Positions 1,508-22,107 of a stretch of 29,856 nt of DNA are shown one piece after another. Within the stretch, counting starts at the first letter, position 1. Every line of letters starts with the position of its first letter. The notes under the pieces are model-generated. The model searched no databases. It was given only the letters and a program-made list of their open reading frames with translations, and had not been told where the DNA came from. Both the position numbers and the translations under genes were made by a program. Source of the DNA: a virus. The stretch spans positions 1-29,856 of IMG/VR virus record IMGVR_UViG_3300023116_000221. One strand, written 5' to 3'.

Positions 1508-1510
1508 ATA
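1503..1510 (+). promoter_or_regulatory. Weak late-promoter-like sequence over the hub stop codon
   Basis: GGTAAATA overlaps the TAA stop at 1505-1507. It differs from the T4-type late core (TATAAATA, or NATAAATA in cyanophages) at the second base. The run TAAATACAATAT here recurs with one mismatch at 21471-21482, again over a stop codon and just before a start. This is a low-confidence call. Confidence 0.3.
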
Positions 1511-1514
1511 CAAT

Positions 1515-2013: not shown

Positions 2014-5000
2014 ATGTCGTCAAGCGAAAGACAATCCAGACTACTTGTAGCAGAAGATTGGAAAAAAATATATCAAAGTTTTAGAAATGCTGATTTTCAA
2101 AGCTATGATTTTGATAATTTACGTAGAACAATGATTAATTATCTACGTCAAAATTATCCAGAAGATTTTAACGATTATATTGAATCTAGTGAATATCTTG
2201 CACTAATTGATATGATTGCATTCCTTGGGCAAAACTTATCGTTCCGTATTGACTTAAACGCTAGAGAAAACTTCCTTGAAACAGCAGAACGCAGAGAAAG
2301 CATACTACGACTTGCACGTATGCTTTCTTACAATCCCCGTAGAAATCAACCTTCTAGAGGATTGTTGAAATTAGCCACAGTAAAAACTTCGGAAAATCTT
2401 ACTGACAGTACAGGTGCTCAATTAGCTGGAAGAGTAATCAAGTGGAATGACCAAACAAATACAAATTATTTTGAACAGTTTATTAAGATTCTTAATGCTG
2501 CATTGCCTGTTACTAATTCAATAGGTAGTCCATTAAAAAGCGAAAACATCGATGGTGTACAAACACAAAAATACAGATTCAATGCTACAAATACTACAAG
2601 TGCAATATTTCCATTTTCAAAAAATATAGAAGGTATTAGCACTGTTTTTGAAATAGTTAGCACTGATATACAAGGTGATGTTATAATAGAAGAGCCGCCT
2701 GTTCCAGGAACTAGTCCTGCATTTTTATTTAGAGATGATGGACAAGGCGCTGCAAGTGTGAACACAGGATTCTTTATGCATTTCCGTCAGGGCAAATTAG
2801 ATACTGGTAATTTTTCAATTTCAAATCCTATTCCTAATCAAATTATTGCTATAGATGCAGAAAATATTAACAATGATGATATATGGTTATACAATACAGA
2901 TTCAAATGGCTTTGAAACAACTTCTTGGACAAAATTATCTAGTGTAGAAGGTAATAATGTTATATACAACAGCTTGTTTGAAGGTATAAGAAATGTATTT
3001 GCAGTCACAACTAGAATAGGCGATAGAGTAAACTTAGTATTCAGTGACGGAGTATTTGGAAACTTACCTTCAGGTAACTTTAAAGTGTTTTATAGAACAA
3101 GTGCAAACACAAATATGGTAGTAACACCTGCAAGCATAGGCAATGTAAATATCGAAATCCCTTATCAAGGTAGAAACGGAAATCTTGAAACACTAACTTT
3201 AGGATTTAGATTAAATTATACAGTATCTAATAGTACAACTACAGAAACAAATACAAGTATAAAACAAAATGCACCTGCAACTTATTATACACAAAACAGA
3301 CTTATAACGGCTGAAGATTATAACATAGGACCTTTAGCTATAAGTCAAGATATCATTAAGACAAAATCAGTGAACAGAATATCAAGTGGTATCAGTAGAT
3401 ATTTTGATTTAATAGACGCAAGCGGAAAATATTCAAATACAAGTTTATTTGCAGACGATGGTGTAATTTATAAAGAGTTTTTTGATTCAACATCTACATT
3501 TACATTTGTAACACAAAGTGATATTGAGGGAGTAATTTATAATACTATAGAAGGTATTATACAATCTACAAATTTACGTAATTTTTATTACAGTGAGTAT
3601 CCTAGAATATCTACATTAGATCTAAATGCTGTTTGGAAAAATAGCTATCAAGCAACAGACCAAAATACAGGCACGTTGTCTTCCGGTGCCGATAGCCAGT
3701 CGAAGTTTAAAACAGGAACTTTTACATCAAATAATTTAAGATTTGTAGAAGCAGGATCAATGTTAAAATTCCAAGCACCTAAGCTAAATGGTACGCAACA
3801 ATATTTTTTACCTAATGGCTCATTAACTACAAATGCAGAAGAATTTGGTGCTTCTATGATTAGATGGACTAAAGTCTTTTCAGTTGCAAATGAAGGCGAC
3901 GGAGTGCTTAATAACATTGGAGACATTGTATTAACAGACGTAATAAATGAAGATAGTATATTAGTAGAAATAGTTGCAAAATTTAGTAAGATACTTAATA
4001 ATGATACTAAAGTACAAATTATTGATCAAGCATTTGCTTACAAAGATTTTGCATTAAGATATGATATTGAAGAAAGAGATTGGAAAATAGTATTAAATGA
4101 AAATATCAATACTATTAATAATTTTGCTTTAGGTAAAGCCGGTGACGCTACTGGAGAAAATTTAGATTCGAGCTGGTTATTATATTTTAAAACTGATGGA
4201 GAAAAGTATACTGTAAAAAATAGAAATCAAAGATACATTTTTGAAAGTGAAAATGAGATTAGATTTTTCTTTGATAATGCTGATAAAATATATGATCCTA
4301 AAACAGGAAAAATTGTAAGAGACCAAATCAAAGTTTTAAGTATTAACAAACAAGCAGGCGGAACATCTTCTTATAGCCAAGATTATGTTTGGAGTATTAG
4401 CGATGCATATAGAGACAAAGAAGGTTATGTAGATTCAAGAAAAATACAAATTCAGTTTTTTGACTTAGATGATGACGGAGCAGTTGATAATCTTGATCTT
4501 TTTTATGAAATAGTAGACGAAAATAATAGTGATATTACTGTAGCTAATAAAACAGTTTTTCAAAAAAAATACACTACTACTGATGGCGTAGAAGATTTTA
4601 AATTTTTTAATAATACCTCTAGCGAAATAAAAATAGTTACAAATGAGAATGCAATTGGATCATATTCTACTCATAAAGATAGACAAGTTTTTTACCTTGT
4701 AGAAGAAAAAGTTTTCAAACAACTTGATAAAACAGCTAGTAATTTAACAATTAATACAGATTATAAAGCATATGTTGGACGATCAAACTTAAAATTCCAT
4801 TATATTCACGTTGCTGATAGTTCTTATAGAATTGATCCAAGTGCAAGTAATATTATTGATACATATATCCTTACAAAAAATTATGATATAGATGTAAGGA
4901 AGTATATCAGCGGAGCATTATCATTAATGCCCTTACCACCTAGCAACGATATTTTAACAAGATCATACGGATCAGAAATAAATGCAATAAAATCAATAAG

Positions 5001-5538
5001 CGACGAAGTTGTCTATCATCCAGTTAAGTATAAAGTATTGTTTGGAAGTAAGGCGAAAGAAGACTTGCAAGTAAATTTCAAAATTGTTAGAAATAAAGAC
5101 TTAGTTGTAAACGAAAATGAACTAAAGGCCGATATTATTTCTGCTATTGACACTTTCTTTGAATTAGAAAATTGGGATTTCGGCGAAACATTTTATTTCC
5201 AAGAGCTTAGTGCTTACATTATGAATACTCTTAGTCCAAAACTACAAAGTATTATAATTGTACCTAAAAAAGCTGATCAAAGTTTTGGTAGTTTATTTGA
5301 AATAAAATCAGAATTTGACGAAATTTTTATAAGTGCTGCAAAGGTTTCTGACATAGAAATTATTGATGAAATAACAGCAACGGAAATAAAAGCAAGCGGA
5401 AAAGTTGTAACAAGTGTTTCTACAAGCACAACAACTGACATAGCAAGTTCTAGTAGTTCTAGCACTACAACAAATTCCGGCGGTTTAACAAGTACAACAA
5501 ACACTACTAGTAATAATAGCGGAGGAACTAGTTACTAA
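2014..5538 (+). CDS. gp6: gp6-like baseplate wedge protein (Baseplate_J type), enlarged
   Basis: A 1174-residue protein, against about 660 in T4 gp6. gp6 dimers join neighbouring wedges into the inner baseplate ring and respond to triggering of contraction. The amino end (about 20-120) is helical and includes EYLALIDMIAFLGQ and RLARMLSYNPRR, the opening expected for T4-like gp6. Around 334-368 is the J-type signature (FSDGVFGNLPSGNFKVFYR). NRLITAEDYN (about 428-437) matches the family's 'xTAxDY' segment. The conserved carboxyl domain runs about 970-1130 and includes ENWDFGETFYFQELSAYI. Between about 480 and 960 is extra beta-rich sequence absent from T4, with an EF-hand-like loop DLDDDGAVDNLD at 817-828. 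The last 45 residues are almost only S, T, N and G. AAGGA at 2002-2006 supports the start. Its stop overlaps the next ATG by one base. Confidence 0.93.
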   Translation: MSSSERQSRLLVAEDWKKIYQSFRNADFQSYDFDNLRRTMINYLRQNYPEDFNDYIESSEYLALIDMIAFLGQNLSFRIDLNARENFLETAERRESILRLARMLSYNPRRNQPSRGLLKLATVKTSENLTDSTGAQLAGRVIKWNDQTNTNYFEQFIKILNAALPVTNSIGSPLKSENIDGVQTQKYRFNATNTTSAIFPFSKNIEGISTVFEIVSTDIQGDVIIEEPPVPGTSPAFLFRDDGQGAASVNTGFFMHFRQGKLDTGNFSISNPIPNQIIAIDAENINNDDIWLYNTDSNGFETTSWTKLSSVEGNNVIYNSLFEGIRNVFAVTTRIGDRVNLVFSDGVFGNLPSGNFKVFYRTSANTNMVVTPASIGNVNIEIPYQGRNGNLETLTLGFRLNYTVSNSTTTETNTSIKQNAPATYYTQNRLITAEDYNIGPLAISQDIIKTKSVNRISSGISRYFDLIDASGKYSNTSLFADDGVIYKEFFDSTSTFTFVTQSDIEGVIYNTIEGIIQSTNLRNFYYSEYPRISTLDLNAVWKNSYQATDQNTGTLSSGADSQSKFKTGTFTSNNLRFVEAGSMLKFQAPKLNGTQQYFLPNGSLTTNAEEFGASMIRWTKVFSVANEGDGVLNNIGDIVLTDVINEDSILVEIVAKFSKILNNDTKVQIIDQAFAYKDFALRYDIEERDWKIVLNENINTINNFALGKAGDATGENLDSSWLLYFKTDGEKYTVKNRNQRYIFESENEIRFFFDNADKIYDPKTGKIVRDQIKVLSINKQAGGTSSYSQDYVWSISDAYRDKEGYVDSRKIQIQFFDLDDDGAVDNLDLFYEIVDENNSDITVANKTVFQKKYTTTDGVEDFKFFNNTSSEIKIVTNENAIGSYSTHKDRQVFYLVEEKVFKQLDKTASNLTINTDYKAYVGRSNLKFHYIHVADSSYRIDPSASNIIDTYILTKNYDIDVRKYISGALSLMPLPPSNDILTRSYGSEINAIKSISDEVVYHPVKYKVLFGSKAKEDLQVNFKIVRNKDLVVNENELKADIISAIDTFFELENWDFGETFYFQELSAYIMNTLSPKLQSIIIVPKKADQSFGSLFEIKSEFDEIFISAAKVSDIEIIDEITATEIKASGKVVTSVSTSTTTDIASSSSSSTTTNSGGLTSTTNTTSNNSGGTSY

Positions 5539-5540
5539 TG
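5521..5540 (+). promoter_or_regulatory. SD site and TAATG stop-start coupling into the giant gene
   Basis: GGAGGA (5521-5526) lies inside the last gp6 codons, 11 nt before the ATG at 5538. The gp6 stop TAA (5536-5538) shares its final A with that ATG. This arrangement suggests that ribosomes finishing gp6 re-initiate on the giant gene, giving linked amounts of two probable wedge partners. Confidence 0.6.
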
Positions 5541-8500
5541 TCCTATAATGATAACTACAATAACGAAAGTTCATTGCCAGACGATACAAATAAAAATCGA
5601 ACAGCAAGTGACTTTTTACCTAAATTTTTCCGCTCTGAAGCAAATAGAAAATTTTTACAAGGAACAATAGATCAGCTTATCCAACCCGGTGTTGCTGAAA
5701 AAATTAATGATTATGTAGGAAGAAAAACTGCTAAATCTTACAAATATTCTGACAATTATTTAGGTGATATCACTCCAGAAAGAGAAGCTTATCAATTAGA
5801 ACCTGCAACTATTATAAAAGATAATCTAGAAAACATTACTTTCTATAAAGATTATAACGATTATCTTGGTACATTGAATTACTTTGGCGGAAATACAAAA
5901 AATCATAGTAGATTAAACAGTTCTGAATATTACACTTGGAATCCAGGCATAGATTGGGATAAATTTGCAAATTTCCGTGAATACTATTGGATGCCTAACG
6001 GACCATTATCTATTCCTGTAAGAGGACAAAGTCAAGATATTGTTAGTACATATACGGTTACAACAGAAGATCAGGGTGATAATGTTGCTTACGTATTTAA
6101 TGACGGATTTGTACGTAACCCGTCTATAAAATTGTATAGAGGTCAGACTTACAGATTTGAAATTAATACACCTGATCATCCTATGGCTATAGCTATAAGC
6201 AGAACATTTACTCCTGGCACAGCAATACTTACTGCTGGTACAGAAGGTATTAGAGATTCTGGATTGTTTGATGCAAATCTATATGACGCAAATAATTTAA
6301 GTTATGATGTAGGAGAATTTATTGTATTACCTGAAAGTGGAAATGTTACATTTACTGAAGGAGATAATGTTTCTACTCTTTATCCTGATGGTATTAGAAA
6401 ACTAGGAGAAGACGGCGAAGAAGTTGCAGTTGTATATATTTCTAACGGAACAATAGAATTTACTATTCCGTTTAATGCCCCAGATAGATTATATTATATT
6501 TCACAAAATGATATTGATACAAGTGGTGTTTTTAGAATTTACGATATAGAAGAAAATACTTCACTAGATGTACAAAATGAAATATTAGGTAAAAAAACTT
6601 ATACAAGTTCTAACGGCGTAACTCTTTCTAATGGAATGAAAATTAGATTCCAAGGAAATATTACACCAAAAATATATGAACAAGATCAATGGTATGTTGA
6701 AGGTGTAGGAGACAAGATAACTTTAATTAACGAAAAGGATGTTATAATACCCTCCGGATATACGCAAGATATTCTTATACCTTTTGATTCCGACCAGTTT
6801 GATGCATTGCCTTTTTCAAACGCAAGTGCATATGCCACAGATAAAGATTATATTATCATAAACAGAGCAAGTAAAGATAAAAATGCTTGGTCTAGATATA
6901 ATAAATGGTTTCATAGAGATGTAATAGAACAAAGTTATAAATTTAATAATATTCCTATCAATCTAAATGAAGATTTTAGGGCTCGCAGGCCAATTTTAGA
7001 ATTTGAAGCCGGATTGAAACTTTATAATTACGGAGTTTTTGCTAAATCAGACGTTGACTTAGTTGATACATTTACAACTGACGTTTTCTCTACAATCGAA
7101 GGTCAGCTAGGATATAATATAGATGGTGTAAATCTAGCAGAAGGAATGAGAATACTTTTTACTGCTGATACAGATTTATTAGTTAACGGTAAAATTTTTA
7201 TTGTAAAATTTCTAACAATTAACAATCAAAGACAAATATCTTTAGTAGAAGCTGAAGATAGCCAACCTTTAGATTTAGAAACTGTATTTGTTAAAAATGG
7301 AACCAAAAATAGTGGTAAAACGTATTTTTATGAAAACAGCGTTTGGAAAGTAGCACAAGAAAAAAATAAAGTAAACCAACCTCCTATGTTTGATTTATGT
7401 TGTCCACAAGGCAATCCTTACGGAGATTTGGATGTATTTAATTCATCTACTTTTAAAGGTACAAAAATATTTTCTTACAAAGAAAACGAAGATGGATTTA
7501 TCGATTCAGAATTAGGATTTGCTTTATCGTATCGATCTATAGAAAATTCTGGTGATATATTATTTGATTTTAATTTACAAACTGACAAGTTTACAGTACA
7601 AAACAATGATCAAATTGTAACTGTTAACACAGATACTGCGTTTTTAAGAAAATATAAAGATAGAACTACGTTTAATTATGTAAATGGCTGGTCTAATACA
7701 CCACAATATAGCAAGCAGTATGTAATAGATCAAAGGGTCGTTAGTTTAGAAAAAACAAACGATTTTCCTGTCAGAGTTTTTAAAGATGCCGGTGACTTAA
7801 ATGATTTAAAAGTAATTGTATACGTTAATAATAAGTTAAAAATTAAAAATACAGACTATGTAATTAACCGTATCAACAAAGAAGCATTAATTAGATTTAA
7901 TACAGATCTATCTATTAATGATTCAATAATTATTAAAGCCTATAGTAGTGCTATAAAAAATAATTTAGGATATTATGAAGTTCCTATAAATTTAGATAGA
8001 AATCCTATGAACGATGACATAGGTGAATTTACTCTAGGTGAAGTAATTGATCACGTAGATAGTATGGTGCCGGAAATTCCTAATTTTATTGGTACGTTTC
8101 CTGGAGTAGGAAATATTAGAGATATAGGAAATGTAAGCAAATACGGAAAAAGATTTGTTAAACATTCTAGTCCGTTAAACTTATCTCTTTATCACATTAC
8201 AAATAAAAATTATAATTTAGTAAAAGCTATCAGGTATTCGAATACTGAATACAATAGATTTAAAAGAATTTTTTTACAAACATCTGAATCTTTAGGTTAT
8301 GACGGAGAAACAAAGCAGCACGTCGATAAAATTCTACAAGAAATTAATAAAGATAAAGTAAAGTCTCAACCGTTTTACTTTTCAGATATGCTAGGTTATG
8401 GTCCTTACAATAGACTAGCATATAAAGTATTAGATTCTAGAATAAGTCAATATGCTCTAAGCAACGCATTTAGCCTTGACGAATTATCAGCAAAAGCTAT

Positions 8501-11500
8501 TAATGTATATTTGAACGGAGTTCAACTTACAGCAGAATTAGATTACAGTTTCAGTAATGACGGTTATGTAATAATTGAAGCAGGACAAACTGAAGATGAT
8601 ATTATTGAAATATACGAGTTTGAAACTACTGACGGTTCTTACATTGCTCCTACGCCGACAAAATTAGGATTGTATCCAAAATACTATCCTGAACTTCTTT
8701 TAGATGACACTTACCAAACAGAAAATGCGTTAGACGATAAAAAATATAAAGTTTATGGCGAAGTTTCTGAAGGATTCCAAAACGCTAAAATGCGAGGATG
8801 GTTCTATCCTTTGTTTACTACACAACAAGCAGCTAAATCAGCAGACATTGAAAATGGTGGCACAGGAGAAATACACAAACACCAATTTAAAGGTTTAAAT
8901 GTTACTCTTTATATGCCAAATACTGGAGGAGTTCACGGCGGCGAAGATAATGTTGAAATAGATTCTTATCCAACCGGTATTCCATTTATTAGAGGTCACG
9001 ACGGAAGTTATGTTAGAGCATACTTAGATTATAGAGATGAATTACTTTTAGAATTAGAAAAAAGAATCTTTAATAATATAAAAGTAAACTATGAAAATAC
9101 AGGATTAGATGTTGATAAGTTTTTAGGTGATGATAAATCTAATAACGTTTTTTCTAGAGCAGAAATTAATAGTTCATTACTGCAATACTTTAAAAGATGG
9201 CTCACATTAGTTGACGCTGATTATTCAGATAATTATTTTTATGATCGCAATAACTCTTTCACATTTAACTATTCAACTGCATTAGATCCTAACGGAAATC
9301 TTTTACCTGGTTTTTGGAGAGGAATCTACAAAAGAGCGTTTGGCACAGATAAACCACATTCGCAGCCTTGGGAAATACTAGGAATAAAACGTAAACCAAA
9401 ATGGTGGGATACAGTATACGGTCCCGCCCCATACACAAGTGATAATTTAATTTTATGGAGAGATATAGAAGCAGGAAAAATTGCTGATCCTGAAAATACA
9501 AGATATACAACTCAATATAGCCGACCTGGAATACTTTCACACATTCCGGTTGATTCAAAAGGTAAATTAAAGCCGCCACAACAAAGCGGTTATGTAAAAG
9601 GTTTTGTACTTAGACAAAGCACAAACAATTTCAATTTTGGCGACGAGGCCCCAGTTGAAACTGCGTGGAGAAGAAGTTCTGATTATCCATTTGCTGTTAT
9701 ATCTAGTATGTTGTTGAATAAACCTTCGGATACATTAAGTAAAGGGTTTGATGTATCAAGAATTTCAAAAAATCTTGCAGGACAGTATGTATATAATAAC
9801 AATAAGCATATTAGAACAGACAGTATTGTATTTCCTAATACATATGCTGACAATCAAAGAGTTTTGGCTGCTGGTTTTATCAACTTTATATATAATCTAG
9901 TAGCAAATGATATACTCACAATCTACGAAGATTATCAAAATGAAGTAAAGTCAATACAAAACCAATTAGGCTTTAAATTAGGTAGTTTTAGTGATACTTC
10001 AAAATTAAATTTAGTTTTAGATAGCCGTAGTCCACAACAACAATTAGAGGAAGGAGGAATATATATTCCTCAAGAAAATTATAAAATTATTTTCAATACT
10101 AGTTCTCCTCAAAAAATTGCAACCTATAGTGGAGTTGTTGTAGAAAAAAGAGCTAACGGATTTACTATTAGAGGATATAATAACGAGAATCCATTTTTTG
10201 AATATTATACTCCAAGAATAGGTAGTAAATCAGTAAATGTAACAGTTGGTGGTATATCCGAATCTTCTACAGACTGGCAATCTGCAAAGTTTTATGTAAA
10301 AGATACAGTAGTAGAATATAATAATAATTTTTATAGAGCTTTAAAAGATCATACGTCAGGTGAAAGTTTTAGTTTACAAAATTTTGTCAAGTTACCTGAA
10401 CTGCCAACTGTTGGCGGCAAAACTGCTGGTTTTAAACGTAATTTTGATAAAACTGAAGTTCTAAGCTTACAATACGGTACAACACTTTCAACCTCGCAAG
10501 ATGTAGTAGATTTCCTTCTTGGCTATGGTGAAAGACTACAAGATATAGGTTTTGAGTTTAATTATGTAGAAGGCGAAGGATTAGTTAACAACTGGGATCA
10601 AATTTGTAAAGAATTTTTATTCTGGACCACACAAGGATGGGCAAGTGGAACAGTTATTACATTATCACCTGCTGCTAATAGTTTTAACTTTAAACAAGAT
10701 TATTTTGTAGTTGATAATATAAATGATGCATTTTATCCTTATAGTATTTTGCAAGCTAACGGTGAGCCATTATCTACAGAATTTACAAGTTTACTCAGAA
10801 ACAAAAATAGTTTTGGTATAGAAACCATTGACACTACCGAAGGATTGTATAGTGCTGCATTACCTCTTGTGCATAAAGAACACGTAGTTGTAATTGATAA
10901 CAAAACTGTGTTCAATGATGTGGTGTTCGAACCTTCAACAGGTTACAGACAAGAAAGAATCAAAGTCACAGGATATCGTGCAGCTGATTGGAACGGAGGC
11001 CTAAATATTCCAGGATTTGTGTATGATGATGCTAAAGTTACAGATTGGACAAATTGGAAAGATTACGCTATAGGTAGTATAGTAAAATATAGACAGTTTT
11101 ATTATGTAGCTACAAATAATATTCCTGGAACTAACAAATTTAATTCTAATGATTGGTATAGATTAAGCAAAAAACCAGAATCAGAACTAATTACAAATTT
11201 TGACTACAGAATTGATCAGTTTAGTGATTTTTATAATTTAGATACAACAGGATTTGATAGTGAATTACAAAAAATGGCTAAGCATCTTACTGGATTCCAA
11301 AAAAGACAATATCTTGCAAATATAATTCAAGATGATGTAAGCCAATATAAATTCTATCAAGGATTTATCCAAGATAAAGGCACAAAGAATGCACTAGATA
11401 AATTATTTTCTTCTTTAGGTAATTCGGGCCAAGACACATTAGAATTTTACGAAGAATGGGCAATTCAAGTAGGTAGATACGGAAACGTTGATAATAAAAA

Positions 11501-14500
11501 TCAAATAGAAATTAATTTTGAAGAAGAAAAAATTGTTGATTCTCCTCAGGCTATAGAATTAGTAACGTCTCTACCAGACACAAACTATGATCGTCATTAT
11601 AGAATTTTACCATTTCAAATGTATGATAAGCCAGCTGATTATGATCACAAGCCGTTCCCTACAAAAATACTAGATACGGAGATTATAAAATCGGGTGGTT
11701 TTGTTAACGAGGAAGATGTTGCATTTGTAGCAGGAAATAATGCGGAATTGCCTACAGGAGATGTAAATCAGCTTATTTTAGGTTCCTATATTTGGGTAGT
11801 TGAACAAGGAGAAAATCCTTGGGCAGTTTATCAACATATAGAATCAGGTGCAAAAGCAATAGATTTTACTGATTTAGAAACTACCGATACAGACGGAAAT
11901 CAACTTTGGCAAATAAAAATTGATAGATGGCCCGGAGACATAATAAAAGTAGGTGATATTATAGGAGTTAAAGGAGCTCAAGAATATGACTTAAATGGAC
12001 TTTATATTGTTGATAATACAAATCTTGATAAAATTACAATTAAAACTTCTTCTGACAATCAACCTTCAAGTTTTACAAATGAAAATTTCTTAGTAACTAT
12101 ACTACGCAATGTAAGAGTAAAAGATATTGAAGCAGCAAATACATTAGCACAACAAAAAGTTTATCAAGGACAACGTTTTTGGGTTGAAAATTTTGAAAAC
12201 AACGATTGGAAAGTAATAGAAAATAATAGTGTTTATGAGGCAAATCAAACAATTATTAACACAAATAGTTTTTTAAATGAAATGCAAGGATTTTCTGATA
12301 GCATTGCAGTAAGTAGTGATAATAAGAATTTGTTTATATCATCTTATTCTGATGCAAATGGAAAAGTTGACTATTATAGAAGATCTAATGATGTTCAAGG
12401 TTTTGTCATTGATCAAACAATTTTACCTCCAGATACAATCGATGTATGGGAACCGAATAAAGATTATTTAAGAAATAACGTTATTGTATACGATGTTGAC
12501 AGTACACGCACGTATTGGAAAGCAATTGACAATCATACTAGTGGCACATTTTTTAGTGACACAGAAGCAAGTACTTATTGGGAACAAATTACAAATGCAT
12601 TTGCGTATTTTGATCCATATAATAGTCAATTCGGAAAATCAATTGATGTTTCTGCAGACGGCGAATTTTTAGCAGTAGGATCTCCAAACGCAAGCTATGT
12701 TCCTACTAGATTTTTAGGAGAATTTGATTCAACTCGCACATACATAAAGGGCGATATAGTTAGATATAGAGAAAGTTTATGGAAAGCAAATAGAGAAATA
12801 TTACCTAAAATCGAAGATCAACCGTTTACTACATTTGACTCTTACATTAACATTACTGAACAACAGGATGCAGATAGCACTACACTTACACTTTTAGTTG
12901 CAGGAAATCCTGGTTTAGAAAATAGTGTTGTAGATCATTTCTTAGTTAGAGCTCCTGCTGATATGTATAATGGAACCCAAGTAGGTGACGGAGTATCATT
13001 ATCTTGGAATTCGAGAAGTTATGCATTTCCAACATTAGATAGATATTTTCCTTTTGATGAAGAAATTTCAGAACTAAGTGCTGCTTATATTTCGCAAGAA
13101 CACATTATACAACAAAAGATTGATAACATTTTCTTTTTAGAAACATTTGTAACACTTCCTAATGTTGGTGATAGAATAGAAACTGACACAGGTTCAGGAA
13201 TAGTCTATTATAGAGCTACTCTAGGTGATAGTGCAGTAATTTATATTACTGATGCAAATGGTGTCTTTCCAATTACTGGCGAAATGTTTACTGATAATAA
13301 AGATTTTGTAGGCTTTTATACAGAAGAAAATACTTATTCTACTACTGACTCTGTAGGCGGTTACTGGTTGTTTAAAACATATGATATCGGCCAAGACCCT
13401 GTACCAACTCACGTAGTTCCTAATTTTTCTGGAGATACATTTACATATAGTAATAACAGTAGATACTATGATGTAGGTAGAGGATTGGTTTATTCTGATG
13501 TGAGACGTATTTCCGAAATACAGGAAAATCATCCTATTAATGCTTATAGTAATATTCAAGATACTGTAGGAACAATTGGACCATACCTTAATAGAAAAAA
13601 TCAAGCTAGTTTTATTACCCACTTATCTTTTAATGGTGATAATGGAGGAGTAAATAGTCCGTATCCTAGTAATAAGTTTGTAGTAAGATTGTCTAAAACA
13701 TATTCTGATTTACTGTATCCTAGATTTTTATCAGAAGGACCTAATAATCTTTCTATAGAAATGAAATATTATGATAATCCAGATTATGATATAAGCTCTA
13801 CTGGCTTACAAGTATCTGACTTAACAAAAACTCATAGCATTAATGATATGTGGGACGGGTTTATTGAATTTGATTTTACTGAATTTGACTTCCAAGGTAA
13901 TGTTTTTGAACCAGAAATTGGAGATATTCTAGTCGATGTACAAACACCTAGAGATGGCCAAGGTGGTTTAGCTGTAACAAGTTCAACTACAAGTGCAGCT
14001 GAAGTTGTTTATTATCAAAGAAACTTTAATAGAATAAGAGTTTACGTTAAATTACGTACAGATATTGCTTCAGGCAATTGGTCACAGTTAACAAATATTG
14101 GAAGATTCCAAGTCAAACGTTTATCTAATCCAACCTTACGTGGTGCTGGAGATCCTGATCAAGTTATTGGTACTATTTTAGATATTAATGATGATATAGC
14201 ATTAGGAACATCACTTATTGGAAAACTTTTAGTTATCGAAGCAGATTCAACATTTCCAGCAGTAGATAATTGGGATGATATTATTCCGATAGTTGATCAA
14301 GAATATTATTTTTATAATGAAGATACATTAACTGGTATTGATAGAGAGCAAAATGCACCGTACTCTTTGAATAAAGACTACACTCAAATTTATAATATTC
14401 CTGCAGACAGAACTGGTACTGGCGGTTTTGAAAACCAAGGAGCCGTGACAATTTATAGAAGAGATGTTTCAGGATTATATCAACTACAAATAGTGTTAAC

Positions 14501-17500
14501 GTCTGAATATGCTGGAAAAGATAAACAGTTTGGTTCTAATGTTAAGATAACGAAAAAGAATAATTTATATAAACTATTAATTTCTAATGAACCTACAGGA
14601 GATGCAAGAAATGATCCATACGAATGGAGGAAAAATCCTGGTGCTATAGAAATTTATAATCACGGTGTATTTGAAGATCAAACTTTTAAAGGAGATTATC
14701 TTCTCGGAGTTGAATACCTAACTGGCGATGTAGTTCTTTATAAAGATGACTATTTTGCTGCAAGAAAAACAATATCATCTTCTAGTAATGAAATTAATAA
14801 TTCGATATTTTGGAATAAAATATCTTGGAGACGTAGTAAAGATTCTAACTACAGAGGCGCCTTTAACAATCTATATTCTTATGCAGAAGGAAATATAGTA
14901 TTACAAGATGGATTATTCTGGAAGGCACTTACTAATATTAGTGCTGGAGCTGTATCACCAAATTCACTTAACAGTTCTTGGCAGCAGCAAATTGCAACAA
15001 TAGATTATTTAGGTTATCTACCAAATTTATCTGGGTTTAACTATCTTGCAGAGCAAGTTTTTGATCCAGATGAAAATATTGAGCAGTTTGCAGATAGCTT
15101 TGAGGTTAGTGAAGATGGAGAAACATTAATAGTTAAATCTAGACAAGTTTTATCTGATAGTAGTTATGAAGTTTCTCTTGTTGTTTATAATTTAGAAAAC
15201 AAAAAATATACGTTAAAACAAATAATTAAAGCACCGGCATCAGGACAAACATTACAAGATAATGATAATGATAGATGGCTGAAAGACGCTAATAATAGTA
15301 ACATACCAGCAGTATATCAAGACACTAATCCTGCAGGATTGCATTATACAACAAATCAAGATGTCGTAGGTACTAGAGTTCCTAATCCAAATGCTACTCC
15401 GGAAGTATATATTGATTCTAATAAATGGGCTGATAGTATTAGTTTGTCTCCAGATGGTTCAGCATTAGCAGTAAGTGTCCCATATATTGATACTGAGAAA
15501 GAAGAACAAGGCGAAGTTTGGATTTATAATTTTGATTACGATAATAGTTATTATGGAATTGTTAATAATGATGTGACTAATCCAACGTTTGTGCTAAGAT
15601 CGCCAAATAACGAAGAAGTTGAAAAATTTGGTTCTACTATCAGTTTTGGCAAAGATAATTTAGTTATATCAAGTTTAAACGGAGATATGAATATTCCAAC
15701 TAGATTTGATACATTTGTTAATACAATTTCTGATGATAGTTATATTTTAGATTCTGATACAGATGCTAGAACGCCAACAACATTTGATATCGGTTATACA
15801 ACCTTTGCCAACAAAAAAGTAGACAGAGGCACAGTATACATATTTGAAAAATTAGGTAATGGGTTTATATATTCAGAACAACTTATATATCCGTCGGTAC
15901 AATTTGAATTTGGAAAAAATTTAAAAGCTAAAAATAATCACATTTATGTGGGTGTACCTAACGCTATAAATCCTTTAGGTGACGAAAGAGGTTATGTAAT
16001 TGACTATCGTAAGCCAAAAAATAAACTTGCTTGGACTAATAAAAGAAGTAGCCAAGTTCCAGTTGATATAGATAAAATTGATGGAGCATTCCTATATAAT
16101 AAAAGAACAAACGAAATTATTTCTTACATAGACTATATTGATCCTATTCAAGGTAAAATTGCAGGAACAGTTGATCAAGAAATTACATATAAACTTAATT
16201 TAGACCCAGCTAGATATAATGTTGGACCATTAGCAGATAGTGATGTTGATCCTAAAGTAGCTTGGACTGACAAAAATGTAGGACAGGTTTGGTGGAATAT
16301 TACTAATGCAAGATTTAGTTATGCATATCAAGGAACTACAACATTCCAGAAAAATGAATGGAATAGATTACTTCCAGGATCAACAATAGATATTTATGAG
16401 TGGGTAGAAAGTGACTATCTACCTAGTCAATGGAATCAGCTTGCAGATACTGACAATGGCATAAAACTAGGTATCAGTGGTACAGCTATCTACGGAGACG
16501 CTAAGTATAGTGCCAAATTATCATACAACGAAGTAAGTAAAACTTTCAGCACCAAATATTATTTCTGGGTAGAAAACAAACAAACAGTTCCAAGGGTAGA
16601 AAATAGAAATATAAATCTATTAACTATGGTAGGTTTGATTGCAAGACCTAGACAATCGGGCTATAGATTTTTAAGTTTAATTGGAAATAATAAGTTAATC
16701 TTAAATAATTTTGATAAACTAATAACCTCAGATGATTTGGTTCTCAATATTAGATATAAAAAAGAAACTGGAAAATCTCAAAACGAGCATAAACAATATC
16801 AAATTATTTCTGATAAGTTGCCTACTAGCAAACCGAATTCAGATATAGAACGCAAATGGATAGACAGTCTTATCGGAGTAGATACTCAACTAAGACGTGT
16901 TCCTGATATAACTATTCCTGTAGCAAAAAGAATTGGTATACAAAATAGACCAAGACAGGGTATGTTTGTCAATAGAGTAGAAGCTTTAAAACAAACTATA
17001 GAAAGAATTAATTATGTGTGTTCAAAAAATCTTATTGTAGATGAAAAGAATTTATCTAGATTATTTGAAAATGAAATTAAACCTACAACTATTAGTAATA
17101 GATTTGATGTAGAGATTGATACATATGAAGAATTAGCATTTGTAAGTACCAACAAACTTACACCTGCAGTGCTTACACCTGTAGTAGTAAATGGAAAAAT
17201 ATTAAGGGTAATAATCACAAATCCTGGAAGAGGCTATAAAGTTCCTCCTAGCTATGATATTGAAGGCGAAGGATCTGGAGCAGCTTTTGACATTACTATT
17301 AATAATTTAGGACAAATTACAGATGTAACTGTAACTGCACAAGGTTCGGGATATAAAGAAAATACAATCATAAACACTCGTAAATTTAGTGTATTAATTA
17401 ATTCTGACAATACAGCATTTAATAAGTGGACAATTTATGATTGGAATAATACTTTAAACAAATGGACTAGAACTGCTATACAGTCCTATGATGTTAGCGT

Positions 17501-20500
17501 GTATTGGGATTATATAGATTGGTATGACGAAGGTTACAATCAGTTTACAAATGTAAAATACAGTGTTGACAACTCTTATGAATTACCTAGTATAAATGAT
17601 TCAATAGGAGATATTGTTAAAATAAACAATGTAGGTTCCGGAGGTTGGCTACTATTACAAAAAGTTTCCAATGAACAAACTGAAGATTATACAATTAACT
17701 ATTCAACAGTTGGCAGACAAAACGGAACTATAGAATTTAAATCTAGTCTTTATGATTTTATAAAGAATTCTATTGGTTATGATAATACAAGTTTTGATAG
17801 TTCATTCTATGATACTAATCCGGTTAAAGAATTACGCATTATATTTGATACTATTAGAGATTACATTTTTACCACAAATCTTGAAATAGAATATAATCAA
17901 TTATTTTTTGCAAGTTTGAGATATATTTTATCTGAGCAGGCTCGTGTAGATTGGATGTTTAAAACTAGCTTTATATCAGCTAAACATAAATTAGGTACAT
18001 TAGAACAAAGCCCTACATTTAAGTATAGTAATTTAGAAGATTACGAATCTTATGTGAAAGAAGTAAAACCTTATAGCACAAACATAAGAGAATTTGTTGA
18101 TAATTACGAAAATTTAGATAACACTAATAGTGTAACAACTGACTTTGACAATGCACCTTATTTTAACGATGAAATTGGAAGAATTTCGTCAAGCAACGCT
18201 AGTATCACCCAAGATATAATAATAGGTGACGAATCTAACACTGCTCAATATCCAAGAAAACATTGGAGAGATAATTTAGGTTATCAAATTAAAGAAATAA
18301 ATGTAGCAGAGCCTGGTACAGGTTATACTTGGACACCAGTTGTAAATATCAGTGGCGGCGGCGGCTCAGGAGCCAAAGCAAAGGCAGTTTTAGGATATGG
18401 TAAAATAACTAAAATTATAGTTACAGATCCCGGCAATGGCTACACTAGTCTTCCTACGGTAACTATAGAAGGGTCTCAACAGGAAAATAGTATTCAAGCC
18501 AAAGCAGTTGCAGTCTTAGGCAACGGAAAAGTTAGATCTCCGCACATAAGAGTTAAATTTGATAGACTGTCTGGAACATATACTTACGATACTATCCAAA
18601 AAACAGCATCATTTACAGGAACAAATATTAATACAGTTTTCACTCTACCGTTTCCTATGGATCTTGAAAATACAAAAGTAAAAGTATATATTAATAAGGT
18701 CGAACAACTTAGAAGCAAATACACATACGAAAATGTAGTAGATAATTCAAAAGGATTTGCTGTAGAAAAAGGTAGAATTAACTTTACAACGCCGCCGGCT
18801 ACTGATGATTTGATATATATTGAATATCAAATACCTCTAAGTATGTTAGGTGCCGAAGATAGAATTTTACATTCATATAATCCTTTGAGTGATATGTACG
18901 GAAAAGATCTTTCTCAGTTAATGACTGGTATAGATTATGGCGGTGTTGAAGTTAGAAGTTATGAGTTTGCAGGAGTGTCAGGTTGGGATTCTAAAGGATG
19001 GTATACCGATTATTGGGACGAATTTGACGATACTTTTGAAGATGAAATCTTTGTTGCAGATCAATCAACTGTTGCAGTTCAACTCAGTTCTCCGTTAGAA
19101 TCGGGTGTCGAATATAATGTTTATAGAAGAAAATATAGTTCAGTATTACCTAATCCTAATCCTTTTGTAAGAATAGATGATCCTAACTTTGGAACTATTA
19201 CACCAGTAACTAATAAAGACGCAGAAATGCAAACTTTAACCGGAGACGGTGTTACCGATATAATAGATCTAGCAGAATTATCTGTTGAATTGTTAGACGG
19301 TGATACATTAATTGTAAGAAAAACCACAAGTGATGGAAGTGTATTACCTGATACAAATAGTTATGATACACAATTAAGTGGCGGAGACTTATCTTATAAC
19401 AATGCAACTGGTATAAATGCAGAAGATATTATTACAGACGGCGACGGATTTATTTCTGAAGCTGCAATGGCAGGCCCAGAGGAACTTGTTCCTGGACAAA
19501 TATACGATACATTAGATTTGAAAGTATTTACTAGAGAAGGATCTGGACAAGGTAAAATATTTGTACAAAATTATCGAGTGAATGAAGATATTAGTGAGTA
19601 CGATCTAGGGGTTACTCCTGGTACAATTGATAGTGTTTTTGTAAAAGTGAATAACTTTATTTTAAGAAGAGGAATTGATTACAGCATTAACTGGAATAGT
19701 AATACAGTAATATTGAATAGTATTTTTACAGAACTACCTAATTATGTTAACGGAGCATCATTAAGTATTGTTTCTATAGCGCAAGCAGGTCAAAGTATCC
19801 TTGATTTCTATAATTACAAAGGTGATGGACAAACTAGAGATTTTGAAACTAATGTAAGATTACAAGAAAATATTTCCGTTTATGCAAGTATTAATGGTGT
19901 TAAGCAAGATGTAACATTTGGAGAAGATTCTACAGACAGCAATCTTATTATAAGTTTTGATAATGCACCAAATCTAAATGATGCTGTTTATATTGCACTA
20001 TTTGCAGGAGATAGTGTAGTAAACTATAGTCAACTGAAAAAAGATCAGTTTACAGGAGATGGGTTAACTACAGATTTTCAATTAAGTAGTGCTCCATTTT
20101 ACAGTAAACCGTCTCAATACAACCTAATTGTAAAAGTAGGTAATTTAATATTGACTCCTGGATACAATATACAATATACAATTCCAGAAAACAGACAAAG
20201 AGAATTTGCATTAGAAGTTTTCCAACAGCCTTCAGGATCATTACTTACAAGTGATATTGTTGTATATATTAATGGCGAACGTATTACTGTAGAGTCACTA
20301 CAATGGAGATTTGATATTGCAAATAGTAGTGTTGTGTTAGCGGACGATGTCGGTCAGCCCGGAGACGTATTAGAAATATTTGTTATTACTGATGGAGATT
20401 ATACATTATCCGCAGAAGATACTGTAAGAATTTACAATCCTCCTGCAGATAGCACTACTATAGAAATCTACCAATTTAGTAATCACGACATTTTAGAAAT

Positions 20501-21473
20501 TGAAAGAATTAATTATGATGTTGTTTCAAGAATAACAATGGCACCAGGTACAACAAATTATATAGACTACAATAGACTATCGGTTGGAGAAATATCTTTA
20601 AGGAAACCAGCTATAGACGGCAAGTATGTTTGGGTAATACAAAACGGAACATTACTTACAAATGATGTTGATTATTATATTAATGATAATAAAGATAAAG
20701 TAATACTGTCGCAATATCCTAGTGAAGATGATGTGTTAGATATAATACATTTTACTGCTGAAACTAGTGTAAGCAAATTTGCATTTAGACAGTTTAAAGA
20801 TATTCTTAACAGAACTCACTTTAAACGTTTAGATGCTCCTGCTACGGTGCTTACTGAACCTCTTACATATTATGATTTACGCATCGAAGTACAAGACGGA
20901 AGTTTATTATCTGAACCAAATAAAGGACAAAACCTCCCAGGTATATTGTTTATAAACGGAGAAAGAATAGAATATTTTGTAAAAGAAGGAAATACGCTAA
21001 GACAATTACGTAGAGGCACACTAGGTACAGGTATAAAAGAAATACACGAAGTTAATTCTAAAGTTTACGACCAGAATATAAGTAAGACTATTCCCTACAG
21101 AGACGAAACAATTGTTCAAACCTTTATTGGTGATGGACAAACTCAAACCTTTAAACTTAACACACCTACAGCAAGTGTAAATGAAATAGAAGTATTTGTT
21201 GGCGGGAAAAGGTTAGATAAAAATGATATTACAAAATATTTGCCTGTTTTTGAACAAACCAGTCCGGAAGGTGATTTTAACTTACCATCTGATATACAAT
21301 TAGACACTGTGAGTCAAAATATCTATTTAAAAACTCCACCTTTAGAGGGAGTAAAGATCACTGTTATTAGACGAAAAGGTAAAATATGGAATGAAGGAAC
21401 CAAAACTTTAGGAGAATCAGAAAATAGTATAGGTAGATTCTTACGTGCAGGAACATCTGAACTGCCTGAATAA
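5538..21473 (+). CDS. Giant mosaic virion structural protein (5311 aa), in the gene 7 position
   Basis: One uninterrupted frame of 5311 codons (roughly 0.6 MDa), with uniform AT-rich codon use and no internal stop. In T4, gene 7 (a peripheral wedge protein) follows gene 6, so a wedge role is inferred from position; I see no direct similarity to T4 gp7. Residues 1-160 hold LPKFFR (27-32) and YYWMPNGP (149-156), motifs I recall from large cyanophage structural proteins. A cupredoxin-like beta domain spans 194-335. Long conserved phage regions run to about 2010 and include PGFWRGIYKRAFGT, WWDTVYGPAPYTSDN and DEAPVETAWRRSSDYPF. Six carbohydrate-binding-like modules begin near 1584, 1836, 2303, 2395, 3050 and 3103. 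FG-GAP/propeller-like repeats lie near 2249, 2363, 3182, 3295, 3361 and 3456. GxGY repeats lie at 3889-3946 and 4252-4320. FxGDGxT-type modules lie near 4359, 4564, 4759, 4836 and 5194. No membrane segment or long coiled coil is visible, which argues against a tape measure. The protein is probably an extended baseplate-periphery scaffold. Confidence 0.88.
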   Translation: MSYNDNYNNESSLPDDTNKNRTASDFLPKFFRSEANRKFLQGTIDQLIQPGVAEKINDYVGRKTAKSYKYSDNYLGDITPEREAYQLEPATIIKDNLENITFYKDYNDYLGTLNYFGGNTKNHSRLNSSEYYTWNPGIDWDKFANFREYYWMPNGPLSIPVRGQSQDIVSTYTVTTEDQGDNVAYVFNDGFVRNPSIKLYRGQTYRFEINTPDHPMAIAISRTFTPGTAILTAGTEGIRDSGLFDANLYDANNLSYDVGEFIVLPESGNVTFTEGDNVSTLYPDGIRKLGEDGEEVAVVYISNGTIEFTIPFNAPDRLYYISQNDIDTSGVFRIYDIEENTSLDVQNEILGKKTYTSSNGVTLSNGMKIRFQGNITPKIYEQDQWYVEGVGDKITLINEKDVIIPSGYTQDILIPFDSDQFDALPFSNASAYATDKDYIIINRASKDKNAWSRYNKWFHRDVIEQSYKFNNIPINLNEDFRARRPILEFEAGLKLYNYGVFAKSDVDLVDTFTTDVFSTIEGQLGYNIDGVNLAEGMRILFTADTDLLVNGKIFIVKFLTINNQRQISLVEAEDSQPLDLETVFVKNGTKNSGKTYFYENSVWKVAQEKNKVNQPPMFDLCCPQGNPYGDLDVFNSSTFKGTKIFSYKENEDGFIDSELGFALSYRSIENSGDILFDFNLQTDKFTVQNNDQIVTVNTDTAFLRKYKDRTTFNYVNGWSNTPQYSKQYVIDQRVVSLEKTNDFPVRVFKDAGDLNDLKVIVYVNNKLKIKNTDYVINRINKEALIRFNTDLSINDSIIIKAYSSAIKNNLGYYEVPINLDRNPMNDDIGEFTLGEVIDHVDSMVPEIPNFIGTFPGVGNIRDIGNVSKYGKRFVKHSSPLNLSLYHITNKNYNLVKAIRYSNTEYNRFKRIFLQTSESLGYDGETKQHVDKILQEINKDKVKSQPFYFSDMLGYGPYNRLAYKVLDSRISQYALSNAFSLDELSAKAINVYLNGVQLTAELDYSFSNDGYVIIEAGQTEDDIIEIYEFETTDGSYIAPTPTKLGLYPKYYPELLLDDTYQTENALDDKKYKVYGEVSEGFQNAKMRGWFYPLFTTQQAAKSADIENGGTGEIHKHQFKGLNVTLYMPNTGGVHGGEDNVEIDSYPTGIPFIRGHDGSYVRAYLDYRDELLLELEKRIFNNIKVNYENTGLDVDKFLGDDKSNNVFSRAEINSSLLQYFKRWLTLVDADYSDNYFYDRNNSFTFNYSTALDPNGNLLPGFWRGIYKRAFGTDKPHSQPWEILGIKRKPKWWDTVYGPAPYTSDNLILWRDIEAGKIADPENTRYTTQYSRPGILSHIPVDSKGKLKPPQQSGYVKGFVLRQSTNNFNFGDEAPVETAWRRSSDYPFAVISSMLLNKPSDTLSKGFDVSRISKNLAGQYVYNNNKHIRTDSIVFPNTYADNQRVLAAGFINFIYNLVANDILTIYEDYQNEVKSIQNQLGFKLGSFSDTSKLNLVLDSRSPQQQLEEGGIYIPQENYKIIFNTSSPQKIATYSGVVVEKRANGFTIRGYNNENPFFEYYTPRIGSKSVNVTVGGISESSTDWQSAKFYVKDTVVEYNNNFYRALKDHTSGESFSLQNFVKLPELPTVGGKTAGFKRNFDKTEVLSLQYGTTLSTSQDVVDFLLGYGERLQDIGFEFNYVEGEGLVNNWDQICKEFLFWTTQGWASGTVITLSPAANSFNFKQDYFVVDNINDAFYPYSILQANGEPLSTEFTSLLRNKNSFGIETIDTTEGLYSAALPLVHKEHVVVIDNKTVFNDVVFEPSTGYRQERIKVTGYRAADWNGGLNIPGFVYDDAKVTDWTNWKDYAIGSIVKYRQFYYVATNNIPGTNKFNSNDWYRLSKKPESELITNFDYRIDQFSDFYNLDTTGFDSELQKMAKHLTGFQKRQYLANIIQDDVSQYKFYQGFIQDKGTKNALDKLFSSLGNSGQDTLEFYEEWAIQVGRYGNVDNKNQIEINFEEEKIVDSPQAIELVTSLPDTNYDRHYRILPFQMYDKPADYDHKPFPTKILDTEIIKSGGFVNEEDVAFVAGNNAELPTGDVNQLILGSYIWVVEQGENPWAVYQHIESGAKAIDFTDLETTDTDGNQLWQIKIDRWPGDIIKVGDIIGVKGAQEYDLNGLYIVDNTNLDKITIKTSSDNQPSSFTNENFLVTILRNVRVKDIEAANTLAQQKVYQGQRFWVENFENNDWKVIENNSVYEANQTIINTNSFLNEMQGFSDSIAVSSDNKNLFISSYSDANGKVDYYRRSNDVQGFVIDQTILPPDTIDVWEPNKDYLRNNVIVYDVDSTRTYWKAIDNHTSGTFFSDTEASTYWEQITNAFAYFDPYNSQFGKSIDVSADGEFLAVGSPNASYVPTRFLGEFDSTRTYIKGDIVRYRESLWKANREILPKIEDQPFTTFDSYINITEQQDADSTTLTLLVAGNPGLENSVVDHFLVRAPADMYNGTQVGDGVSLSWNSRSYAFPTLDRYFPFDEEISELSAAYISQEHIIQQKIDNIFFLETFVTLPNVGDRIETDTGSGIVYYRATLGDSAVIYITDANGVFPITGEMFTDNKDFVGFYTEENTYSTTDSVGGYWLFKTYDIGQDPVPTHVVPNFSGDTFTYSNNSRYYDVGRGLVYSDVRRISEIQENHPINAYSNIQDTVGTIGPYLNRKNQASFITHLSFNGDNGGVNSPYPSNKFVVRLSKTYSDLLYPRFLSEGPNNLSIEMKYYDNPDYDISSTGLQVSDLTKTHSINDMWDGFIEFDFTEFDFQGNVFEPEIGDILVDVQTPRDGQGGLAVTSSTTSAAEVVYYQRNFNRIRVYVKLRTDIASGNWSQLTNIGRFQVKRLSNPTLRGAGDPDQVIGTILDINDDIALGTSLIGKLLVIEADSTFPAVDNWDDIIPIVDQEYYFYNEDTLTGIDREQNAPYSLNKDYTQIYNIPADRTGTGGFENQGAVTIYRRDVSGLYQLQIVLTSEYAGKDKQFGSNVKITKKNNLYKLLISNEPTGDARNDPYEWRKNPGAIEIYNHGVFEDQTFKGDYLLGVEYLTGDVVLYKDDYFAARKTISSSSNEINNSIFWNKISWRRSKDSNYRGAFNNLYSYAEGNIVLQDGLFWKALTNISAGAVSPNSLNSSWQQQIATIDYLGYLPNLSGFNYLAEQVFDPDENIEQFADSFEVSEDGETLIVKSRQVLSDSSYEVSLVVYNLENKKYTLKQIIKAPASGQTLQDNDNDRWLKDANNSNIPAVYQDTNPAGLHYTTNQDVVGTRVPNPNATPEVYIDSNKWADSISLSPDGSALAVSVPYIDTEKEEQGEVWIYNFDYDNSYYGIVNNDVTNPTFVLRSPNNEEVEKFGSTISFGKDNLVISSLNGDMNIPTRFDTFVNTISDDSYILDSDTDARTPTTFDIGYTTFANKKVDRGTVYIFEKLGNGFIYSEQLIYPSVQFEFGKNLKAKNNHIYVGVPNAINPLGDERGYVIDYRKPKNKLAWTNKRSSQVPVDIDKIDGAFLYNKRTNEIISYIDYIDPIQGKIAGTVDQEITYKLNLDPARYNVGPLADSDVDPKVAWTDKNVGQVWWNITNARFSYAYQGTTTFQKNEWNRLLPGSTIDIYEWVESDYLPSQWNQLADTDNGIKLGISGTAIYGDAKYSAKLSYNEVSKTFSTKYYFWVENKQTVPRVENRNINLLTMVGLIARPRQSGYRFLSLIGNNKLILNNFDKLITSDDLVLNIRYKKETGKSQNEHKQYQIISDKLPTSKPNSDIERKWIDSLIGVDTQLRRVPDITIPVAKRIGIQNRPRQGMFVNRVEALKQTIERINYVCSKNLIVDEKNLSRLFENEIKPTTISNRFDVEIDTYEELAFVSTNKLTPAVLTPVVVNGKILRVIITNPGRGYKVPPSYDIEGEGSGAAFDITINNLGQITDVTVTAQGSGYKENTIINTRKFSVLINSDNTAFNKWTIYDWNNTLNKWTRTAIQSYDVSVYWDYIDWYDEGYNQFTNVKYSVDNSYELPSINDSIGDIVKINNVGSGGWLLLQKVSNEQTEDYTINYSTVGRQNGTIEFKSSLYDFIKNSIGYDNTSFDSSFYDTNPVKELRIIFDTIRDYIFTTNLEIEYNQLFFASLRYILSEQARVDWMFKTSFISAKHKLGTLEQSPTFKYSNLEDYESYVKEVKPYSTNIREFVDNYENLDNTNSVTTDFDNAPYFNDEIGRISSSNASITQDIIIGDESNTAQYPRKHWRDNLGYQIKEINVAEPGTGYTWTPVVNISGGGGSGAKAKAVLGYGKITKIIVTDPGNGYTSLPTVTIEGSQQENSIQAKAVAVLGNGKVRSPHIRVKFDRLSGTYTYDTIQKTASFTGTNINTVFTLPFPMDLENTKVKVYINKVEQLRSKYTYENVVDNSKGFAVEKGRINFTTPPATDDLIYIEYQIPLSMLGAEDRILHSYNPLSDMYGKDLSQLMTGIDYGGVEVRSYEFAGVSGWDSKGWYTDYWDEFDDTFEDEIFVADQSTVAVQLSSPLESGVEYNVYRRKYSSVLPNPNPFVRIDDPNFGTITPVTNKDAEMQTLTGDGVTDIIDLAELSVELLDGDTLIVRKTTSDGSVLPDTNSYDTQLSGGDLSYNNATGINAEDIITDGDGFISEAAMAGPEELVPGQIYDTLDLKVFTREGSGQGKIFVQNYRVNEDISEYDLGVTPGTIDSVFVKVNNFILRRGIDYSINWNSNTVILNSIFTELPNYVNGASLSIVSIAQAGQSILDFYNYKGDGQTRDFETNVRLQENISVYASINGVKQDVTFGEDSTDSNLIISFDNAPNLNDAVYIALFAGDSVVNYSQLKKDQFTGDGLTTDFQLSSAPFYSKPSQYNLIVKVGNLILTPGYNIQYTIPENRQREFALEVFQQPSGSLLTSDIVVYINGERITVESLQWRFDIANSSVVLADDVGQPGDVLEIFVITDGDYTLSAEDTVRIYNPPADSTTIEIYQFSNHDILEIERINYDVVSRITMAPGTTNYIDYNRLSVGEISLRKPAIDGKYVWVIQNGTLLTNDVDYYINDNKDKVILSQYPSEDDVLDIIHFTAETSVSKFAFRQFKDILNRTHFKRLDAPATVLTEPLTYYDLRIEVQDGSLLSEPNKGQNLPGILFINGERIEYFVKEGNTLRQLRRGTLGTGIKEIHEVNSKVYDQNISKTIPYRDETIVQTFIGDGQTQTFKLNTPTASVNEIEVFVGGKRLDKNDITKYLPVFEQTSPEGDFNLPSDIQLDTVSQNIYLKTPPLEGVKITVIRRKGKIWNEGTKTLGESENSIGRFLRAGTSELPE

Positions 21474-21476
21474 ATA
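21469..21476 (+). promoter_or_regulatory. Putative late promoter over the giant-gene stop codon
   Basis: AATAAATA fits the NATAAATA late core and includes the TAA stop of the giant gene (21471-21473). The next ATG is 18 nt downstream, with AGGA at 21483-21486 as ribosome site. If transcription starts about 6 nt past the motif, as for T4 late promoters, the leader would be about a dozen bases. A promoter here would let the small protein and fibres be made independently of the 16-kb gene. Confidence 0.55.
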
Positions 21477-21494
21477 CAGTATAGGAAAATCAAA

Positions 21495-22097: not shown

Positions 22098-22101
22098 GGA
22101 G
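22096..22101 (+). promoter_or_regulatory. Strong SD site for the collar-domain fibre gene
   Basis: GAGGAG overlaps the TGA stop of the preceding gene and lies 6 nt before the ATG at 22108. It is one of the strongest ribosome sites in the window. No late-promoter core is seen in this 10-nt gap, so the gene probably relies on read-through. Confidence 0.6.
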
Positions 22102-22107
22102 TAGATA

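Follow-up and report, generated by a model that had tools for sequence, protein, structure and literature searches.

The 5,311-codon gene that directly follows gp6 in this viral sequence is genuine, and selection constrains it from end to end. Its product belongs to PHROG_10938, a known but poorly understood family of virion proteins in T4-related jumbo phages, and represents this family in a marine clade, as a large new member. Our favoured reading, which we hold to be rather probable, is that this giant serves as a wedge scaffold beside gp6 and has taken over peripheral roles of the baseplate, namely fibre docking and contact with the cell surface. The window, by which we mean the whole stretch of DNA analyzed here, is coextensive with a linear IMG/VR record of 29,856 bp; its features are collected in Table 1.

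A single reading frame under purifying selection

The giant ORF opens with an ATG that shares one base with the stop codon of gp6 (TAATG), and continues without an internal stop to give a protein of about 602 kDa. As the initial annotation had stated, it exceeds five times the length of T4 gp7 (5.1 times the 1,032 aa of the latter) and takes up more than half of the window (53%), the second figure being due in part to the fact that the record is a fragment. Size is all that speaks for an artefact of assembly or gene fusion. Near-identical contigs from other metagenomes align with the window ungapped, at 99.97-99.99% identity over the stretches compared, and in one of these (L089) the near-identical stretch spans window positions 3436-23336 and hence the entire giant ORF. 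When the giant's first 421 residues served as query, 466 relatives were returned. Queries made from the N-terminal 421 and the C-terminal 600 residues fall in the same stop-free frame in all 28 other long contigs, some of them near-duplicates of one another, with frames of 5,123-5,626 aa. The longest relative, on contig L094, has 5,624 aa; an additional insertion of ~340 alignment columns, near window-protein residues 4,500-4,650, probably stems from it. Scanning with core B gave 281 relatives; in a second set of contigs, queried with the 740 residues of this core, 29 of 30 match, the frames being mostly of 4,484-5,351 aa and a few shorter ones (G035, G048 and possibly G050) apparently cut by contig ends.

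None of the contigs examined ties either half of the ORF to other sequence, and cultured jumbo phages carry long homologues. In four pairs of closer relatives dN/dS lies at 0.088-0.142 for the ORF as a whole, and no 300-codon window falls outside 0.04-0.22, which bears out the suggestion that the frame is under selection. Since the frame is open in dozens of contigs, drawn from different metagenomes, and purifying selection is uniform over the gene, we reject an assembly artefact or frameshift fusion, the chance of which we regard as negligible.

Family membership and conserved gene order

The PHROG_10938 profile matches the giant with E-values of 9e-241 (residues 1-2666) and 4e-80 (residues 2667-5311). 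The family carries the annotation “virion structural protein”; it is filed under the PHROG category head and packaging, whereas the position of the gene points to the baseplate. Searches with tblastn matched 84 phage records; the listed ones are jumbo phages, among them 121Q, GAP32, RaK2, CBB, PA5oct, Atu_ph07, Phosso, Vibrio phage 2.275.O and SCTP-2. The order gp25-gp6-giant is found in Atu_ph07, PA5oct, 121Q, Phosso, GAP32, CBB, phAPEC6, and XacN1, and in Vibrio phage 2.275.O the homologue of the giant is preceded by a gp6-like gene. The T4-type major capsid protein gp23 is encoded in five of eight contigs of the large marine relatives. Scanning viral contigs with the N-terminus of the Atu_ph07 protein matched Atu_ph07 itself and nothing else, and the N-terminus of the SCTP-2 protein gave no match among them.

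The window protein thus shares its slot after gp25-gp6, and the two cores described below, with the jumbo-phage proteins 121Q gp582, phAPEC6 gp245, CBB_236, PA5oct gp355, and Atu_ph07 gp180. In the Rak2-like and related jumbo phages the family members measure 3,313-4,555 aa, so that the window protein exceeds them by about 760-2,000 residues, with a cupredoxin-like insertion and a propeller and carbohydrate-binding region of 1,350 residues.

Orthologues have been detected in virions by mass spectrometry, which speaks to presence in the particle rather than to place or full length: phAPEC6 gp245 (381.88 kDa) with 17 unique peptides (PMC7247149), CBB_236 with 21 peptides (PMC5259590), each at a sequence coverage of only about 8% (PMC7247149; PMC5259590), and also PA5oct gp355. 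Together with the family assignment, this upholds the initial description of the gene as structural.

Two further observations concern the gp6 position in these relatives. In Vibrio phage 2.275.O the protein encoded there (L005:15974-19837) is annotated with CBM5/12, placing such modules in the neighboring wedge gene as well, and in Salicola phage SCTP-2 (L006:10627-19917) an ORF of 3,096 aa lies directly upstream of the giant.

Comparison with T4 gp7 and with the cyanophage giants

In T4 the genes run in the order 6, 7, 8, and the initial annotation accordingly placed the giant in the gene 7 slot. As a statement of position this stands, since the gene comes directly after gp25 and gp6; homology with T4 gp7 did not survive the profile tests. 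A profile of nine gp7 sequences, compared without secondary-structure scoring with six blocks of the giant, matched none of them, and neither did T4 gp53, gp5, gp6, gp8, gp9, gp10, gp11, gp12, or wac in the same kind of comparison. A lineage-balanced profile of the N-terminus of the giant was likewise negative against gp7. Genome-wide, the gp7 profile gave no match in the eight jumbo genomes or in the three marine contigs searched; in the positive controls it found T4 gp7 and, in Syn33 and P-SSM2, solely the giant ORF after gp6. Searches for T4 gp8 were negative in the eight jumbo genomes and the marine contigs, and positive in T4 and two cyanophages. The giant and T4 gp7 have in common a gene directly after gp6 and, presumably, gp6 as partner; they differ in that T4 gp7 is one fifth the size, gives no sequence match and shares no detected module. 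With the profile tests negative and the cyanophage controls working, kinship with T4 gp7 is without support at the level of sequence.

The controls are themselves giants. Syn33_092 (6,376 aa; L114:2120-21250) and P-SSM2 PCMG_00114 (5,195 aa; L115:2013-17600), which belong to PHROG_701 and PHROG_2885, follow gp6 just as the window giant does, are of similar size and contain the GxGYxxxP module; singly, they match the gp7 profile with P-values of 3.6e-5 and 2.4e-4. In them a T4 gp7 motif can be detected and gp8 has a homologue of its own, whereas neither is seen in the jumbo family, and we found no overall homology between the cyanophage giants and the jumbo family. Giants thus occupy the gp7 slot in two lineages, of which the cyanophage one has kept a gp7 motif and the jumbo one shows none. 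The size of the window giant sets no record, since the Syn33 protein in this slot is larger. A published survey found gp7 to be absent from pelagi- and cyanomyophages, where it is seemingly replaced by VrlC (PMC7029224); the motif seen in the cyanophage giants, however, corresponds to the FYSTKG region of T4 gp7. VrlC, as an apparent gp7 replacement in T4-like marine phages, resembles the window giant in its published description (PMC7029224).

A true but extremely diverged gp7 homologue, in which the gp6-binding helices and the trifurcation domain were kept and the remainder added later, is a possibility to which we give real but lesser credence. The slot after gp6 and the one-base overlap would suit it, as would the same-slot cyanophage giants with their gp7 motif; moreover, a wedge of two gp6-type subunits and one gp7-type subunit is common to T4, XM1, and the type VI secretion system, and in XM1 gp17 the gp6-binding helices are N-terminal (PMC10457771; PMC6300606). 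On such an account the kept elements would probably lie in residues 27-151, a block that BLAST against the jumbo relatives extends to about residues 11-170 and which is a candidate gp6-binding (wedge core) segment. Every profile test at the sequence level argues the other way, and the N-terminal fold is poorly predicted: the AlphaFold model of residues 1-1160 has a pLDDT of 60, and its initial 141 residues score below 50 almost throughout. This model, which is poor at the N-terminus, shows no wedge-core fold, and gp7 was absent from the top Foldseek matches obtained with it; many of the matches among viral structures are T7-type fibre and adaptor proteins.

Architecture of the giant protein

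The block boundaries given in Table 1 were drawn from BLAST comparisons with the jumbo relatives. Slices of the protein and a profile of 40 members, when searched against PDB sequences, returned nothing credible. Against PDB structures the N-terminal model matched nitrite reductase, rusticyanin, and CueO by Foldseek (best E-value 6e-4, reported for the model as a whole rather than for a residue range); the marine-clade insertion probably accounts for these cupredoxin-fold matches, and no obvious copper ligands were seen in it.

Table 1. Features of the window, with coordinates on the 29,856 bp record.
Feature	Coordinates	Strand	Residues or length	Basis
gp5-like spike with C-terminal M15 peptidase	2-1507	+		PF13539, E 3.5e-14; phrog_430
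gp25 homologue (sheath initiator)	1449-1952	+		PF04965, E 3e-8
gp6 homologue (baseplate wedge)	2014-5538	+	1,174 aa	phrog_10646, E 1.5e-293
Giant virion structural protein, PHROG_10938 family	5538-21473	+	5,311 aa	Stop-free in complete relatives
N-terminal block	5616-5990	+	27-151	Alignable in marine clade and all jumbo relatives
Marine-clade insertion	6030-6557	+	about 165-340	Candidate cupredoxin-fold source, placed by sequence pattern
Core A	6555-11927	+	340-2130	BLAST blocks, shared with Rak2-like jumbo phages; PHROG_10938
CBM5/12-like module 1	10266-10388	+	1577-1617	PF02839, E 8e-5, below curated cut-off; internal repeat
CBM5/12-like module 2	11034-11171	+	1833-1878	Internal repeat; motif
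Variable region V	11925-15977	+	2130-3480	BLAST blocks
Seven FG-GAP-like blades, integrin-like beta-propeller	12270-16067	+		Motifs, Pfam, AlphaFold, Foldseek
CBM5/12-like module 3	12438-12572	+	2301-2345	Internal repeat; motif
CBM5/12-like module 4	12708-12809	+	2391-2424	PF02839, E 3.7e-5; internal repeat
CBM5/12-like module 5	14682-14825	+	3049-3096	Internal repeat; motif
CBM5/12-like module 6	14844-14939	+	3103-3134	Internal repeat
Core B	15993-18185	+	3486-4216	Conserved in all jumbo relatives tested
GxGYxxxP beta module 1	17196-17378	+	3887-3947	Motif; internal repeat
C-terminal part	18195-21470	+	4220-5311	Small beta modules, GDGxTxxF type
GxGYxxxP beta modules 2 and 3	18285-18542	+	4250-4335	Internal repeat; phrog_460 module
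Conserved downstream protein, phrog_11259	21495-22097	+		PHROG match
Three tandem fibre-like genes	22108-24240, 24244-26172, 26211-27686	+		Alignment; PHROG tail matches

Most of the extra length of the window protein over that of 121Q is due to region V, which measures about 65 aa in 121Q, 320 in PA5oct, 1,350 here, and 1,520 in Atu_ph07. Among the relatives it has the lowest identity and the most gaps, and such low conservation with many indels fits a surface-exposed part. The region is predicted to form a seven-bladed FG-GAP propeller with CBM5/12-like modules. FG-GAP-like blades lie near residues 2252, 2365, 2998, 3184, 3297, 3364, and 3458, with insertions between them, and Pfam FG-GAP_2 (PF14312) is found in 41 of the 42 aligned members (best 5.8e-14), the window member being the one unlisted. 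An AlphaFold model of residues 2325-3520, and so without the first blade, reached a pLDDT of 80 and a pTM of 0.67, and Foldseek matched it to integrin alpha headpieces with probability 0.96-1.00, to other propellers, and over 102 columns to a chitin oligosaccharide deacetylase. CBM_5_12 (PF02839) is detected in 35 of the 42 aligned members (best E-value 1.5e-9); in the window protein itself it scores 22.9-25.5 bits, below the curated cut-off of 26.2, and self-comparison of the marine profile recovered the six CBM5/12-like copies as well as the GxGYxxxP modules. Fold and repeat motif are those of integrin-type FG-GAP propellers and CBM5/12 modules; the long insertions between blades set the giant's propeller apart from the integrin type.

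The many small beta modules noted in the initial annotation are seen in motifs, self-comparison, Pfam, and models alike. One of them, the GxGYxxxP module of copies 2 and 3, is present in the Syn33 giant as well (P 1.8e-7 by profile comparison). The T7 tail-fibre N-terminal domain (PF03906) was found in 11 of 25 aligned members (best E-value 2.3e-5); Pfam gave no match, PF03906 included, on the C-terminus of the window protein itself, and direct comparison of the beta modules with T7 gp17 stayed below significance. The PF03906 matches in relatives, like the T7-type structure matches of the N-terminal model, hint at modules that may dock fibres. The fibrous or sheet-like structure once envisaged around the baseplate is not seen in the models, the only well-predicted large part being a compact propeller with small attached modules.

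Neighboring genes

Upstream of the giant, the gp5-like spike carries an M15 peptidase as its C-terminal enzyme in place of lysozyme. The gp25 ORF overlaps gp5 as listed in Table 1; a start at 1515, right after the gp5 stop, seems likelier. A profile of eight jumbo gp6 sequences matches the cyanophage gp6 proteins with P-values of 2e-8 and 3e-9, and matches T4 gp6 weakly (P 0.004), yet above the other T4 proteins tried. Downstream, the three tandem fibre-like genes have an N-terminal domain of ~130 aa in common by alignment, which is probably a baseplate anchor; a relation of this domain to T4 gp10 was looked for and none was found. The last ORF (27696-29855), with a glycine-rich end, runs off the contig.

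A proposed place in the baseplate wedge

The gp7-type wedge subunit of T4, XM1, and the type VI secretion system has a part in carrying peripheral elements, be they fibres, spikes, or adaptors (PMC10457771; PMC6300606). Given that gp25 and gp6 are there, that gp7 and gp8 are undetectable and that a virion protein is encoded right after gp6, the simplest reading makes the giant the third component of the wedge. A location in the wedge, contact with gp6, a copy number of six, fibre docking, and sugar binding are all inferred for the giant. The scaffold would be formed by the cores (residues 1-170 with 340-2130, and 3486-4216); the FG-GAP propeller and CBM5/12-like modules, which lie between the cores, would reach out from the scaffold to make contact with the cell surface or with fibres, and the small C-terminal beta modules, some of them like the T7 fibre-docking domain, may anchor the tandem fibres encoded downstream. 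At the assumed six copies the giant would amount to about 3.6 MDa per virion, or ~5% of the mass of a major capsid protein shell of phAPEC6 size, so that the heavy translation cost initially ascribed to it would be modest.

The protein could instead be a peripheral or whisker-type fibre protein, adjacent to gp6 by mere chance and with no part in the wedge scaffold. Rak2-like phages do bear unusual hair-like tail fibres (PMC5259590; PMC7247149), and small beta modules and carbohydrate-binding-like repeats abound in the giant; however, the gp25-gp6 synteny is kept across distant jumbo phages, the genome-wide search gave no other gp7-like candidate, the confidently modeled part is a compact propeller unlike a fibre, and 121Q and GAP32 keep the cores yet are without most of region V. 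We consider a fibre protein of this kind unlikely.

The wedge scaffold can be extended to a broader proposal, which we put forward tentatively: a single chain of 3,300-5,600 residues, unrelated to gp7 in sequence, may have replaced gp7 and gp8, and perhaps fibre connectors, across a T4-related branch, the marine form bearing an integrin-like propeller and sugar-binding modules. A literature search found no account of a PHROG_10938 giant as a wedge protein, an absence that is itself no proof. To what was known of the family the present analysis adds the window giant as a member, a module map, searches for gp7 and gp8 that came out negative, and a contrast that sets one lineage of giants against the other.

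Placement in the wedge would correct the annotation, so far only that of a virion structural protein, of hundreds of marine viral contigs. Giants in the gp7 slot of at least two T4-related lineages give structural studies of jumbo-phage baseplates something definite to aim at, and among the candidate determinants of host contact are the propeller and the CBM5/12-like modules. If the replacement proposal is true, scaffold and host contact would be one molecule in the marine branch.
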